NCBI RefSeq assembly: GCF_042477335.2
Contig: NC_091247.1
Location: 2,564,501 to 2,628,500, forward strand
Reading direction: 5' to 3'
Length of the DNA: 64,000 nt
Source: Ovis canadensis
Lineage: Eukaryota; Chordata; Mammalia; Artiodactyla; Bovidae
In this document: piece by piece, positions 55,105-63,344 of the stretch
Layout of the letters: every line of letters begins with the position of its first letter
Position numbering within the stretch: position 1 is the stretch's first letter
Made by a program: the position numbers and the translations under genes
The notes under the pieces: generated by a model
Database searches by the model: none
The model's input: the letters and a program-made list of their open reading frames with translations, nothing else
What the model was told of the DNA's origin: nothing

Positions 55105-58100
55105 CTAACGAGCTCTTGTGTGGAGGGTCCAGTACTGGCCCCGAAGGCTGGCGTGTGCTTCCAGGAAGCCCTGGCTAAACTCCATCTCTGCCTGGCTGCC
55201 CTCTGACTCCCAGTAGAGCGTCTGTTGCCCACGAAATGCCGTTGTCCTCAGGCTGTGGATGTCCCGGATCTGGGAGAAAAGAGGCAGCCCAAAGGACCGA
55301 CCGCAAATAATAATTAGCATAAGCACTTAATGTGTAAAGTATCGTACACCCAGGTCACACAGCAGCCCATCACGAAGACGCTGTTATTCTACCTGAGCAA
55401 CTGAGGCTCAAAGAAGTTGTACTCCTTCCTCAAGGACACACAAGCCAGAATGCCAGAGCTGGGATCTGAGCCCAGATTTGTACAGAGGCCAGACAGCCTC
55501 CTGCAGGGAGCTGATACCTTACAGAGGCCAGTTCTCCCAGAACACACGAAAGCTCATCGAGGGAGGGCTTGGCCTACTCTTCCAGTAAAATTATCTGATG
55601 CGCTAAAATTATGCTTCAGTCCTGGGTGAACCGGCTGTCTACATCAGCCAGTTCCTGTATTTCATTCTTGTAGGGAGCTCAAGAAACATTTGCTGGGAAA
55701 TAAGCGGAGGAAACTTATCTCCCGTTCATTCACTGATTTTGAGGATTTTGGTCTGAAGTAGACTCAGTGGGCCCAGCAACCCTCCAGTCCAGTCCCTGCC
55801 CCTGTCCCCAGGACGGCTGTCGAGAATGGTGGCAGAAGTCAGCCCCTTCCTGTCCCCATCCCAGCAGCCTCACCAAGATATAACTGGCATCAGTTCCCTC
55901 AGCTCTGGTGCCGCTGTCCACGGTCAGGGCATGGATGGCGATCCTGGCCCGCGGGGCCACGTCGATGAAGATGCGACAGCCCCCCACGTTCCTCCCACCC
56001 GGACTCATCGATGGGCTCAAGATTTCACCCCGGGGTCCGAAGAGCTGCGTGTCACATCCTGCAGGGGAGAGCAGGTGGACAAACTGTGTGTGGACCATCT
56101 CACACACAGAGGATGCCCCAGGAATGGCTGCTCCTGGCAGAGGCCAGGGCAGCTCACAGCTGGGCAGCAGTGGGGATCAGTGCGGCACCACGGTCAGGAT
56201 CAGGGGCCCCGGCAGAAGTCCCCACTGAACCCCACCTCTACCACTTCCTGGCTGGGTGACCCTAATGAAGGCTTTAAATGCTCCGGGCTTCAGTTCCTTC
56301 TGCAAAGTGAAGGGAACAGGAGCACACACTGGGCAGGACAGACTTTAAGAGATCTCAGCGAAGTCACACGTGCAAGAGAGCTTTACACCGACCCGGCCCG
56401 GGGGCAGCCCTCCTGAGTCTCCCCCAAGGCAGGTGCCTGTGCGTGGGGAGCCTGGGAAGTGAGGAGCGAGGACCAGGCCGGCAGCCAGGGCCTGTGCTCC
56501 ATGCTGAGGGGCCAAGGAAGAAGGGTCCCAGGGTCCCACTTCCCATCTGAGGTCTGGGGGGCCCAGAAGTGCCTGGAACCCTGAGGGAAGCCACCTTCCA
56601 GCAGCTTGGGCTGCAGGAAGAGGGCAAGACCCCCAAAGCAAGCCAGAGGGCTATCAATGGATGCGCTGGGGCCCCAGGCTTGCAGGGCTCCCGGCCACTG
56701 TCCTGCATTTAAGGTATGTGTGCACACACACCCTGCTCTGCAGAGGATGAGCCAAGAGGACAGTGCACTCAGTGGGGCTGGGCAAGGCAGCATGCAGAAG
56801 GCCCTTAAAGGATCCTAAAGGACCTGAGTGCCAGGCCAGGGTGTGGGGCCTCGGTGGTCTGAGGGAGGGTGTGAGCCCTTGTGCCACGGGGCCCCAGAGG
56901 AAGGGAGGCCGCACAGCTCAGGACCCTGTCCTGGGCACACGTGCAGGGGTGGGGTGTCGGGGGGTCCAGGAAGGCACTGCATTTCATTCGCAGTCAGCTC
57001 ATTACTTTGTCGACAAAGGTCCGTCTGGTCAAAGCTACAGTTTTTCCAGTAATCACGTACGGATGTGAGTTGGATCATAAAGAAAGCTGAGTGCCGAAGA
57101 ATTGATGCTTTTGAACTGTGGTGCTGGAGAAGACTCTTGAGAGTCCCTTGGACTACAAGGAGATCAAACCAGTGAATCCTAAAGGAAATAAACCCTGAAT
57201 ATTCGTAGGAAGGACTGATGCTGAAGCTCCAATACTCTGGCCACCTGATGCAAAGAGCAGACTCATGAGAAAAGACCCTGATGCTGGGAAAGATTGAGGG
57301 CAGGAGGGGGAGGGGGCAACAGAGGATGAGATGGTTGGATGGCATCACCGACTCAATGGACGTGAGTTTTGAGCAAACTCAGGGAAATAGTGAAGGACAG
57401 GGAAGCCTGGCGTGCTGCCGTCCGTGGGGTCTCAGAGAGTGGGACACACGGAGAAACCGAACAGCAGCAGCAGCTCAGTCCTCCGTCTGCCTCGCCCGCC
57501 AGTCCATCAGGACTGGCCCCACTGGCAGGTTCTGGGCGGGTGGGGAGGCTCCGCTGCCTCGCCGTACCTCGGTGGAAGGCTCCCGGGGCAGGCTGGCTTG
57601 AGTACCGTAGCAGCACTCCGCCTCCGGGCCGCACAAGACGCTGCCTCACCAGCAGCGTGTTGGCTTGGGAGCTGAAAGCCATGCCGGCCGGCTTCCCGCA
57701 CATCTTCCTCCACACGAGCCTGCCCCAAAGCAGCAGCATCTCCCCTGGGGAAGGGGCAGTGCAGTGAAGACCCAGCAGCAGCCCAGTGGCCTGGCGCAGA
57801 CTCAGCTGAGTTCAGGTCCCGACACGCCCACTTACTGGCCATGCAACACTAAGGAACTCCATGTATAACTTAATCTCTTCTAACCTCAGTTTCCTCATCT
57901 GTGAAATGGGGACAACCACACCCCAGTCCTCAGCTGGCTGTAGTGATTACACGTGGGGAGGCACTTGGAGCATGCTCCCAGGCATGGGGCACCCTCGAGT
58001 GACTCTCACTGGCACCCCCAGACCCTGGCACTGGCAGCAGCTGCTCCTGTGGTCCAGACATACCAGCACTGCAGTTGAGAGAACCCTCCAGGACCCGGAG

Positions 58101-61100
58101 GGTCACCACTTCACCCAGGGGCCGCCCGATGGCCGCCGCACAGTCCGGCCGCGTCGTGCCTCGCATGTCGATGATTCCCGTTGGCTCGAGGTGCTGCCGG
58201 CCACAGACACCTAGCCCACGAGCAGCAGGAAGGCAGGTGAGCCGCACTCCCAGGCGGGGCGTCCCCCGCAGGGCAGGGCCAGGGGAGGAGCCTGGAAGCT
58301 GGGGTGGCTCATGTCCTCCCAGGCCCCACCGGAAGCCTTCTCGGGTGGGAAGGGGGCTGCGTGGGCCAGCATATCACCACCCCAGGCACAGAGCCACGCC
58401 TGCTGCGCCAGTGGGTCACACAGGCAGGGCTTCTGACTCTCCTCAACCTTCGGGTCCCTCTCCCCAATGATAGTAAAAGTGAGCTTGCGCTTCCCCAGTG
58501 AGGCAGAGGGCCCAGCCTCCCAAGCCCACCCCTCCAGTTCAGCTGCGCTCAGCCCAGCGTCCAGAGTCCTGCAGTCACAGGTCCACCCCCCTGAGAGGTC
58601 CCCATGAGGAGCGCAGTCTGACTGTCCCCGGTGAAGACGCCTTTGCCCCCCCTCCTGCAGCACCCCCACACAGAAAGAAGGAATCAAACTAACCGGTCTC
58701 CACTGGGCTTTCCTGGGGCCTGGGCAGGTGTCCTCGAGCTGGGGAGAGGAGGCGGGTGTGGGGCTGGGCCCACTCCGGGGGCGCGGCTGTGGCAGCTGTG
58801 GTCTGGCCTGGAGCAGTGGCTTCCTCATGGGGCGCCGGGCTGGCCGTCCCCTGCCCCGTGCAGGGCCCGGCCTGGCAGCCCCGCACGGTCACCGGCTTGG
58901 GAAGGTGCTGGCAGAAGTCGGCGGGCACAGGCACCCGGGCCCGGGGCCCTAGGCAGGCGTCGTGCCGAAGCTGGATGCCCTCCCCACAGGAGACGGAGCA
59001 CTGCCAGGGAAGAGGGACAGAGTGAGGCTGACCCTGCCAGGGCGAGACAAGCACAGCGGTTGGCCAGAGGCCAGGCAGGATCCGATATAATCTCTGCCCA
59101 ACGCAGGAGGCGAGCGTATGTACCCATTCTCCAGACGAGAAGACTGAGGCTCAGAGAAGTCACCCTGCAAGGGTCACAGAGAGAGGAGGAGCATGGATTC
59201 AAACCCGAGTCTCTCCCCGTCGCCCTCCAGGCCTCGCTGTCTCCAGGCCCCAGAGTGGGGACCCGTGGCTTCCTCCCCCTGCCCTCCATCACTCACTGCA
59301 GCGCAGCGTCCGCCCTGCCTGCCCGCCCCGTGCCGCCTCTTCCAAGAGATCATCTCTCCACCCTGGATGCCCAGGCTCCTGACGCTGGCGGCTGTGTGCT
59401 CCGCCTCTTCTCCCCTCCGCGCTGTGAGCGAGCCCCTCCAGGGGGAGGGACCCAGCCCTGTCTACCTTCGTCTCTCCAGGGCTTTGCAAGGTGCTGGGCA
59501 CAGGATGGCAGCTGCTCTCCTTCCGGAGTTATCAGCCCTTCATCTTCTGACGTCTCCAGACCTCGGGGCCTCTGAAGGCCTACCTGTCCCCGATACCTCT
59601 AGGTCTTCCATCCCTCGGTGTCCTAACAGGCCTGGCTCTCCCCCTCCTTTCAGGGGATCACAACCCCCTGCCCAAGGTCCCCATGCGTGAGGACCCTCGG
59701 CTGACACACTGGCCGGCCAGCCCCAGCTGCAGCGCTTACCTGTGTCCAGGCGCTGACATGCCACCGGTAGGCGCAGTCGGCGACGATGCAAGGGATGCTG
59801 GCCTGTGGCTGCACGAGGCCCGCGCAGGCTGCCCTGTCCACCTCCGTGTCCTGGCCGCGGTCCAGCCGCACACAGGCCACCGAGCGAGTGGCCGTGCCGA
59901 GCCCACAGCTGGCTGAGCACGGGCCGAGAGACGTGACTTTCCACCTGCAGCAAGAGAAGACCCCAGGGAGAGGTTCGGCTCCCCCAGAGGTGGCACTGCC
60001 CAGGGGGGCTTCTCGGACGGCCAGCCAGGAGCAGTTCCGAGGCCCCTGGGGGGGTCCAGCAGCACAGTCCCTGGGCCCCTCCTGGCTGATCACCAGGCTG
60101 AGTGGCACGGGGGAAGCTCTGCAGGAAAGAGAGCTCTGTTTCCTTAAGAAGGTCCCCTTTGTCACAGAACACCCGTGGCACCAGCTGCTGGCTGGGTCAA
60201 GAACAGGGACGGGGCAGCCGTGCCCTGGGATGATGGACAGCTGATCTCCGTCCCCATCATTCACCCCTGCACATGGTGATTTATCATCTTTCAGCAAATG
60301 ATGACAACTGGTACATTCAGAGCCAGGGCTGAAGCCAGGCAGGCTGCCCTGGGGCCTGGAGTCCTAATCACTACCCTAGGCTGCCCCAGCCCCGAGACCC
60401 GAGATTCCCCCTCCCAACCGCGTGCCTCCTGCGGGCTTGGCGCTGTTCCAGGTGCTGAGATACCGCCGGGAACCAGACCAAGTCCTCCCCACCCGCCTTG
60501 GAGCACACACAGGTCTCCACCTCGTGACGTTTGGGGCCGGATAGGTCTTTGTCGCGGGGCCATCTGAACAGTGAAGGGTGTGTGTAGGGGCACCCCCGGC
60601 CTCCACCCACTAGATGCCAGCAGCAGGTCGCCCCACCCCCACCCGCGTTGTGACAGTGTCTCGGGGGGACCCCCTGCCTCCCTGTGATGGCACTTCGAGC
60701 AGAGCCAGGGGAGGGATTTCTGAGGAGACAAATACAAGAGCAGCAGGAAGGCAGGTGCACAAGCATCGCCTGGAATGTTCCAGAACATCACGGAGGCCAG
60801 GGTGGCCACAGGGACACTCCAGGGGTGAGTGGAGCTCCTGTGTGCACGAAATTCCCATTTTAAAAATCCCAGATCATCTCAAATATGATGCGCAAAAATA
60901 AATGGAGTGCACGTTTTAGCGTGAGCAAGGAAATCAAGGGACACAGGTATGGACAGCAAACGGATCATAAAGTTACACCGATTAAAACACTTTGACTTGG
61001 GGGTGGCGGTAGGTGGGGTATAAACCAACAGAGTCTGGTAGGAAGCCTCACACAGGTCCGACACAGGAGAAGTCAGGTGCAATGAAGGAGGCAGCTCGCA

Positions 61101-63344
61101 GGGGCAGGGGGGATGCAGCCAAGGCCGCCGCTAGCCGGTGATTTGGAAAAACGTTTTGCTCCCCTGCTTTGCACGCATGCTAAGATGCTTCAGTCGCGTC
61201 CAGCTCTTTGTGACCCTACAGACTGTGGCCCTCCAAGTTCCTCTGTCCATGGGATTCTCCAGGCAAGAATACTGGAACGGGTTGCCATGCCCTCCTCCAG
61301 GACATCTTCCCAGCCCCGGGATCGAGCCTGAGTCTCATGTCTTCTGCGTTGGCAGGCAGGCTCTTTACCACTAGCACCACCCGGGAAGCCCCCTACTTTG
61401 CAACAGACCCCAGATAAATCACAGATGAGTTTAAAGGTTTCAGCGTAAGTGAAGCCGTCCTGCGGTGGCATACTTCTTTAAAACCATGGAGACAGACAGA
61501 GGAAACAGATACGGAAGCATCTCTGAAACCTGGTGGTGGGACGCAGGTGAGCTGCATTCTTTTCTGGACGTTTCTGAGTGGCACACAGGAGCACTGCGTT
61601 ATCTAAAGTGCTAAGTTGCCAAGAGAAGCCGCGGGGACACCGGGAGCTTCCCCACCAGGCTCCCATCCGTCTCCGGATGCCCCTGGCGGGACCCGCGCTG
61701 TCCCCGTGGCCTCGAGCGCTCGGCCCCGGGGGGACAGCCCTCGGGCTCTGCTCAGATGCTGCCTCCTCCACCGGGAAGCCCCCAGCCCCACCCCCGTTAG
61801 AACCAACAGCGAGTGAGTTTGCTGGAATGACCCCGGATGCAGCCTGCCAGGAGGGGGTGCGGGTCCTATTTCCGGTGCCCCTGAGACGCCCGCCCCGTAA
61901 CCCCCACGGCCCGGCCCCACGTCAGCACTTGGCAGGCGCTGAGGCTGCCCACTGCCCAGGCTGCCCACTGCCCAGGCTGGGGCTGCTGACCTGGGCGGGC
62001 AGGGCTCCGGGCTGCAGGCCTCCTGCTGCTCTGGGCGGGGCAGCCCCTGGCACTGGGTGTCCGGCAGGATCTCCTCGTCCGTGTCCTCCCCGTGGGCCCG
62101 GGCACAGTACAGGATCCTCTGCGCCACCCCTCCTCCACAGCTCAGGCTGCAGGCCGCCAGCTTGTACCGCCACCTGGGGCAAACAGGAGTCAGGGGGCGT
62201 CCAGGGGGAGCCCGGCTTCCCCTCACGTCCACCCCAGACCGGAAAGGGCCTGGAAAATGTTCTCTCTCCGGGGAGTCACTGTCTCCACCGGGAGGAGCAG
62301 TGCAGGGGACAGAGAACATTCAGAAGACCCCGCTTTGCAGAAGGGGAAGTTGAGGGCAGAAGCGTCCAGAAAAGCAATGGGGAAGGGGCCGGGCACTCAA
62401 GGGGCCCTGCAGAGACATCGGTCTCCAATAGGAATCCCAGCCTCACCATCACCCGGACCCGCCCCGCCAGGACTCCCAACCTTCTTCCCCACTGTGTTTC
62501 CACGTCACACCAACACTGTCCGTCAGATTCTACGTATACACACATACATATATATATCTTCCCATCAATCTTCTTTGTCATGCGTCCCCCCGCCCCCAGC
62601 CCCCGGCGTCTGCTCCGTGAGCACGGGGCTGCCTGACTGTCTTGTTAGCGGTGGTGTCCCCTTGTGACAGCGCAGCAGCTGGGCATAGCAGGTGCCCAGT
62701 AAAGAGCAAGTGATGAAAAACAAGCCACCAACCGCATGTGCCCACAGCATTCCAAACCCTGTGTGATAAAGCCCCCACCCCCCAGTCTTCTGTGCACCAG
62801 CATGACCGACCCCCTCCTGCGGGTGAGGACGCGAAGGCTTAGGAGCTAATGGGAGGTGATGATGCCACCCTGCAAGGATGCCCACCTAGGACTACCTGCC
62901 TCCTTAGGGAGGGGCCCACCTGGCAGGGCAGGGCTCCGGGCTGCAGTCCTCCAGGGTCCTAGGCCGGGGCATGGGCCAGCACTTGGAGTGAGGCAGGGAG
63001 ACGAGGCGGCCTTGGTCCATCCTCACACATCGAACAGCCAGTGGCACCTGCCCGCCTCCACAGGTCACTGGGCACGGTGCCAAGGCTCGGGTCTCCCACC
63101 TGCAGGGAGGGAAGGCCAGCGCTCCATAGGGAGCCGCAGCCAGGCTGGAGCTCCTTCCTCCTGGGGGCAGCCAGACCGCTGCCCTTCTGCACGCCCTCCC
63201 TCCCTCGGACTCACCTGGCCGGGCACGGGGCAGCCTGGCAGGCCTCCCGCCGGCTCCCGGGCTTGCTTGCCAGGTCACACAGCTCTTCCCGGACGGGTGT
63301 CCTGAGGGCAGGGTCCATGCACACGAAATGCAGCTCCGCCAGGC
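55105..63344 (-). CDS. ADAMTS13: ADAMTS13, C-terminal exons (partial; 5' part beyond the right edge)
   Basis: Secreted metalloprotease that cleaves von Willebrand factor in its A2 domain; this window holds the distal TSR and CUB domains used for docking and autoinhibition. Coding exons 5' to 3': 63344-63215 (end of TSR5), 63099-62920 (a TSR not found in human), 62173-61991 (TSR6), 59944-59740 (TSR7), 59000-58694 (TSR8 and linker), 58210-58064 and 57744-57568 (CUB1), 56058-55874 and 55269-55105 (CUB2 and stop). All have AG/GT borders and join in frame for 558 residues. Landmarks: [108 protein letters not shown] and [17 protein letters not shown]. The catalytic, disintegrin, Cys-rich and spacer domains lie outside. 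Relative to human, the residue matching Cys1275 is leucine and the tail after YWTL is about 14 residues shorter. Confidence 0.96.
55315..55505 (-). repeat. MIR SINE remnant, last ADAMTS13 intron
   Basis: Antisense MIR order: CACCCAGGTCACACAGCAGC, AGCAACTGAGGCTCAAAGAA, GCCAGAGCTGGGATCTGAGC. Same orientation as the gene. Confidence 0.7.
56225..56325 (+). repeat. MIR SINE fragment
   Basis: CCCACCTCTACCACTTCCTG, GCTGGGTGACCCTAATGAAG and CGGGCTTCAGTTCCTTCTGC follow MIR order on the + strand. In an ADAMTS13 intron. Confidence 0.6.
57000..57474 (+). mobile_element. BovB LINE 3' fragment in an ADAMTS13 intron
   Basis: ATTACTTTGTCGACAAAGGT, GTTTTTCCAGTAATCACGTA, GCTTTTGAACTGTGGTGCTG, GATGCTGGGAAAGATTGAGG and a GCATCACCGACTCAATGGAC block give the last ~470 bases of BovB, antisense to the gene. 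Several small gaps put it in more than one frame. It ends about 95 bases from a CUB1 exon (57568). Confidence 0.93.
57790..57990 (+). repeat. MIR SINE remnant in an ADAMTS13 intron
   Basis: AACCTCAGTTTCCTCATCTG then TGAAATGGGGACAACCACAC is a well-kept MIR core; GAGGCACTTGGAGCATGC follows. Confidence 0.8.
59090..59235 (-). repeat. MIR SINE remnant in an ADAMTS13 intron
   Basis: CCCATTCTCCAGACGAGAAG, ACTGAGGCTCAGAGAAGTCA and GCATGGATTCAAACCCGAGT are an antisense MIR core. Confidence 0.75.
60290..61173. other. ADAMTS13 intron, unique part
   Basis: Intronic DNA between the TSR6 and TSR7 exons. No exon supported. It turns AT-richer at 60.85-61.0 kb. Long frames here have no domain. Confidence 0.5.
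61174..61391 (-). mobile_element. Bov-tA SINE in an ADAMTS13 intron
   Basis: Antisense copy: GCTAAGATGCTTCAGTCGCG, GGGATTCTCCAGGCAAGAAT, ACTGGAACGGGTTGCCATGC and the head CACTAGCACCACCCGGGAAG. Confidence 0.94.
62174..62919. other. ADAMTS13 intron between the extra TSR exon and the TSR6 exon
   Basis: Unique intronic DNA with a small TA/CA-rich patch at 62530-62562 (CACACATACATATATATATC). No exon seen. Confidence 0.6.
62920..63099 (-). other. ADAMTS13: Extra thrombospondin type-1 repeat exon of ADAMTS13
   Basis: A 180-base exon between the TSR5 and TSR6 exons. It encodes [39 protein letters not shown] and [12 protein letters not shown]: the six cysteines, the CxxxCGG core and the CxPxPC end of a group 1 TSR. 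The acceptor (CTTCCCTCCCTGCAG, read on the - strand) and donor (CCAG|GTGGGC) are good. Both borders cut a codon after its second base, as at the neighbouring TSR exons, so inclusion or skipping keeps the frame. Human ADAMTS13 passes from the TSR5 end CPAR (Cys951 region) straight to WQYKL of TSR6, so this exon has no human counterpart. Confidence 0.85.

Follow-up and report, generated by a model that had tools for sequence, protein, structure and literature searches.

The ADAMTS13 locus of the sheep Ovis canadensis raises the question of whether the protease of this animal carries one thrombospondin repeat (TSR) more than its human counterpart. The distal half of the gene lies on the minus strand of the window, i.e., the whole stretch of 64,000 nucleotides that was analysed, and the rest of the gene continues upstream. 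The initial annotation had placed an additional exon between those of TSR5 and TSR6 and had described it as 180 bases long and phase symmetric, with six TSR cysteines and good splice sites; this description was borne out by the sequence, and the coordinates given for the extra exon and for the adjoining exons (63344-63215 and 62173-61991) were correct. By a TSR model, the sheep gene contains nine TSRs, the extra repeat included (Table 1). The possibility that human ADAMTS13 already has this repeat was checked in three papers (PMC6706451, PMC8051872, and PMC7082964), the accessible portions of which describe one TSR and seven further TSRs, eight in all. The human gene has 29 exons, with a TSR7 residue falling in exon 24, according to the accessible text of PMC7082964.

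Table 1. Features of the distal part of sheep ADAMTS13. The TSR coordinates were obtained with one TSR model; numbers above 64000 extend the scale of the window upstream.
Feature	Coordinates	Strand	Remarks
TSR1	74774-74682	minus	15.1 bits, TSR model
TSR2, two exons	67482-67253	minus	TSR model
TSR3	66698-66546	minus	TSR model
TSR4	65621-65472	minus	TSR model
TSR5, two exons	64792-63223	minus	TSR model
Exon with second half of TSR5	63215..63344	minus	donor CAG/GTGAGT
Intron between TSR5 exon and extra exon	63100..63214	minus	115 nt, from exon boundaries
Extra-TSR exon	62920..63099	minus	180 nt, phase 2-2, ADAMTS13
Extra repeat, model match	63077-62928	minus	TSR model
Intron between extra exon and TSR6 exon	62174..62919	minus	746 nt, from exon boundaries
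TSR6 exon	61991..62173	minus	model match 62154-61999; nearest genomic relative of the extra exon
TSR7 exon and start of TSR8	59740..59944	minus	TSR7 model match 59922-59773
TSR8 coding stretch	58860..59003	minus	TSR model
Three coding stretches, CUB1 and part of CUB2	55874..58209, outer limits approximate	minus	PDB 7b01 match

The CUB stretches matched human ADAMTS13 CUB1-2 (PDB 7b01) at 124 of 171 residues (73%; E = 8.7e-79), and a spacer stretch upstream of the window gave an 82-residue match to human ADAMTS13 structures (3ghm and 6qig). That the extra exon is part of another gene was rejected, since the flanking CUB and spacer stretches are those of ADAMTS13. When the PDB was searched with TSR5, the extra repeat, TSR6, TSR7, and TSR8, no ADAMTS13 TSR2-8 structure was found, and the 5 matches obtained (thrombospondin-1 and circumsporozoite fusions) were weak. 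The last ADAMTS13 coding stretch and its stop are located at about 55105-55270; the human protein extends some 17 residues further at its C terminus. At the other end, a G-rich repetitive stretch (about 75840-74900, upstream of the window) abuts the TSR1 exon, with 528 codons open in frame. A second repetitive stretch, with a recurring 'YAN' in its translation (about 54600-54050), directly precedes a small-membrane-protein-like start, which we take, from human gene order, to be that of a putative CACFD1.

The extra exon is on the same strand as the TSR5 and TSR6 exons and in compatible phase. Its acceptor AG occupies positions 63101-63100 and its donor GT positions 62919-62918, each boundary is in phase 2 (split codon AG/G, Arg), and the uninterrupted reading frame encodes 60 residues, making up one complete TSR. 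Because both ends are in phase 2, either inclusion or skipping of the exon leaves the ADAMTS13 frame intact. Scored with position weights that were not fitted to these data, the acceptor reached 11.6 bits (99.6th percentile among 2,112 AG sites in 30 kb) and the donor 8.3 bits (98.5th percentile among 1,603 GT sites in 30 kb). Acceptor and donor scores were 11.8 and 12.4 bits for the second exon of TSR5, 9.3 and 7.0 bits for the TSR6 exon, and 11.4 and 11.2 bits for the TSR7 exon, and the splice signals of the extra exon are thus inside the range of its neighbours, with the acceptor one of the better ones. These values bear on the reading that the intact exon is mostly skipped or confined to a minor isoform, in which case the usual plasma protein would have eight TSRs. 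Such a reading would fit the frame being kept when the exon is left out, the donor being weaker than those of TSR5 and TSR7, and the shortness of the preceding intron (115 nt), but both the donor and the acceptor outscore those of the TSR6 exon.

In its translation, the extra exon matched the Pfam family TSP1_ADAMTS (PF19030) with 38.4 bits (E = 1.5e-9; curated cutoff, 23.8) over the full profile (positions 1 to 55 of 55). Its six cysteines and its N-terminal Trp (Trp1) are in register with those of TSR6 and TSR7, and a search of the repeat for a WxxW motif found none. The repeat carries one CxxTCG motif (CPVTCG), the O-fucose motif of TSRs being CxxS/TCG in the accessible part of PMC4448532. 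Among the nine repeats compared (TSR1 partial), TSR4 alone is without CxxS/TCG and has CSSACG. With a leave-one-out HMM, built from the other TSRs of the gene and without the extra exon, the latter scored 30.2 bits, which was higher than TSR4 (29.0 bits) and the second exons of TSR5 (24.9 bits) and TSR2 (23.5 bits). The top score in 20 Markov-2 simulated 84-kb sequences sharing the trinucleotide composition of the real DNA was 15.0 bits, and an origin of the extra exon as a chance ORF was rejected on this comparison; the top real stretch outside the ADAMTS13 TSR exons scored 7.5 bits. AlphaFold2, run on a three-row alignment, gave a strand-rich, fairly confident model of the repeat (best mean pLDDT, 84.0; pTM, 0.54), with pLDDT values of the five models running from 84.0 down to 61.1. 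Foldseek returned 46 weak matches to this model at E values up to 10 (none with E < 0.001), in which CD22 ranked top and TSRs of TRAP, semaphorin-5A, and BAI1 were mixed with many unrelated folds, so that these matches neither support nor harm the assignment. Judged from its sequence, the extra exon is very likely a real coding TSR exon of ADAMTS13 at the gene level.

When the extra exon is skipped, the O-fucose residues of sheep TSR5 to TSR8 are spaced 58, 62, and 60 positions apart, and with the exon included the first step becomes 118 positions. The human O-fucose serines, which we take to be residues 907, 965, 1027, and 1087, show the same spacing (58, 62, and 60), and the extra exon therefore looks like a clean 60-residue insertion between TSR5 and TSR6 relative to the human protein. 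Downstream of this difference, six sheep coding stretches lead from TSR7 to the stop, as do exons 24 to 29 in the accessible accounts of the human gene, and the sheep gene would have 30 exons versus the 29 given there for human, provided that the rest of the gene agrees. The earlier proposal of nine TSRs instead of the human eight is thus very likely right at the gene level in this one genome, by the HMM and the human count in the papers, and may hold for the mRNA. According to the accessible text of PMC8051872, citing Muia et al. (2019), TSR number between Spacer and CUB varies among vertebrates, and sheep ADAMTS13 would likewise differ in its repeat count over this part of the protein. No ninth TSR in ruminant ADAMTS13 was found in the titles and abstract beginnings of open-licence papers among the matches listed; the extra exon may already be annotated in gene databases.

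In a DNA search of the 2.97-Gb genome, the extra exon matched itself only and is thus present as a single copy. A six-frame protein search of the genome yielded 12 matches at E values up to 1; the match of the exon to itself ranked first, followed by TSR6 (5e-6), TSR3 (3.5e-5), and TSR7 (0.0018) of ADAMTS13; E values of the remaining eight were 0.0086 or worse. The TSP1_ADAMTS profile occurs in at least 100 places in this genome, but TSR exons of other genes, which share this profile, scored worse than ADAMTS13 TSR6, TSR3, and TSR7 where they matched the extra exon. That a TSR of a different ADAMTS gene had inserted here was rejected because the best non-self matches were these three repeats, and for the same reason the extra repeat was most likely made within ADAMTS13.

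The extra repeat is 45% identical in protein sequence to TSR6, 37% to TSR3, and 30% to TSR7, and pairwise identities among eight repeats (TSR2 to TSR8 and the extra one) were 22 to 46%. Values of dN were 0.52 (95% interval, 0.35 to 0.80) between the extra exon and TSR6, 0.57 (0.40 to 0.80) between the extra exon and TSR3, and 0.68 (0.47 to 1.03) between TSR6 and TSR3. Within these wide intervals, the extra exon is about as distant from TSR6 and TSR3, both of which are common to human, as these two are from each other, which favours an origin before the ruminant-human split and a loss in the human line. The identity of 45% to the nearest paralogue compares with the 73% found between human and sheep CUB stretches. 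In a tree of 99 TSR rows, the position of the extra repeat was without resolution, and a scan of IMG/VR and GTDB contigs for a copy from another mammal gave pattern matches and no confirmed relative.

The similarity of the extra exon to TSR6 is mosaic, which leaves doubt about an old duplicate. In the first part, 47 of 96 bases matched TSR6. The match rose to 57 of 78 bases over the last 26 aligned codons and to 30 of 33 over the final 11, and the similar 3' portion includes an uninterrupted 21-nt stretch of identity; the 3' ends of the two exons (62918-62997 and 61989-62068) showed 74% identity over 80 nt. An origin of the coding, used exon within the ruminant or artiodactyl line, as a copy of the TSR6 exon that then changed fast, would account for this 3' end and for the nearest relative adjoining the extra exon, and the dS to TSR6, with a lower bound of 0.44, leaves some room for a duplication in the ruminant line. 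However, without the last 11 codons TSR6 (dN, 0.69; dS, 1.00) is no closer to the extra exon than TSR3 (dN, 0.61; dS, 1.09), the first part and the protein are no more similar to TSR6 than stated above, and a short conversion tract would explain the 3' similarity. We consider such a recent gain unlikely. From the comparison with TSR6, the 3' end is possibly a small gene-conversion tract, a younger duplication also fitting, and the codon distances do not mark the extra exon as a clear young copy of TSR6 or of TSR3. Between the exon gain and the human loss that had both been put forward for the difference, the codon distances thus favour loss, the TSR6-like 3' end leaves doubt, and an old origin followed by loss in the human line appears likelier than a recent gain.

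No defects were seen in the frame, the cysteines, the Trp, the O-fucose motif, or the splice sites of the extra exon. In a neutral-decay simulation (1,500 runs per rate, with assumed rates), in which an exon counted as intact when it retained the frame, the splice dinucleotides, the six cysteines, and the Trp, the share of intact runs was 44% at a rate of 0.02 changes per site and fell to 12% at 0.05, to 1.3% at 0.1, and to 0 of 1,500 at 0.2; none was intact at 0.3. A recently dead pseudoexon whose decay has yet to show would be in keeping with the proportions at the two lowest rates, but every feature inspected is free of defects, and we hold this explanation to be very improbable. Predominant skipping, which the weaker donor might suggest, must likewise contend with an intact frame and a full set of cysteines that, going by the simulation, are hard to explain without use; it seems improbable to us. 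Should the age of the exon match its divergence, it would, judging from the simulation, have been used over most of this period. For purifying selection this is an argument, from one genome and a simulation, and not proof.

On balance, we favour the explanation that the extra exon is a real ADAMTS13 exon, an old internal duplicate that was kept in sheep and lost in human and that encodes a rod segment sparing the clasp between Spacer and CUB. A duplication inside ADAMTS13, most likely before the ruminant-human split, would have produced the exon, purifying selection would have retained it in the sheep line, and the human line would have lost it. Whether nine TSRs are ancestral in mammals, with one between TSR5 and TSR6 lost in the human line and perhaps throughout primates and rodents, is in our judgment evenly poised.

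A TSR is a compact rod, and one more would extend the arm from Spacer to CUB. In the distal tail, the extra TSR would form a further rod segment, compact, disulphide bonded, and carrying O-fucose, and would lengthen this arm while leaving the Spacer-CUB clasp unbroken. Sheep and human share the spacer loop RRYGEEY without change and differ at one residue of the CUB1 patch LLLWGRLxWRK; the residues important for the clasp were those named in the accessible part of PMC8051872, and the part of the clasp that was compared (spacer loop and CUB1 patch only) looks conserved. The same text reports that ADAMTS13 latency is retained across vertebrates despite variable TSR number, which weakens the initial suggestion that an additional TSR could change shear response or autoinhibition. 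Given this reported latency and the conserved part of the clasp, the extra TSR is expected to be a tolerated spacer that leaves autoinhibition unchanged and has at most a mild effect on the reach to VWF.

Variation in TSR number among vertebrates is already published, as the accessible text of PMC8051872 indicates, and the sheep repeat is a useful but modest difference. A natural nine-TSR enzyme would provide a test of arm length in autoinhibition and in docking on VWF D4. Most structural and shear work on ADAMTS13 rests on the human and mouse enzymes; if nine TSRs are indeed ancestral, these enzymes would be a shortened form, and sheep, perhaps with other large-animal models, would have a longer arm that reaches VWF differently. 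Sheep and other large animals are used for blood-pump and VWF studies, and if the distal arm of the sheep enzyme is longer, VWF cleavage under shear may not transfer directly from these animals to human.
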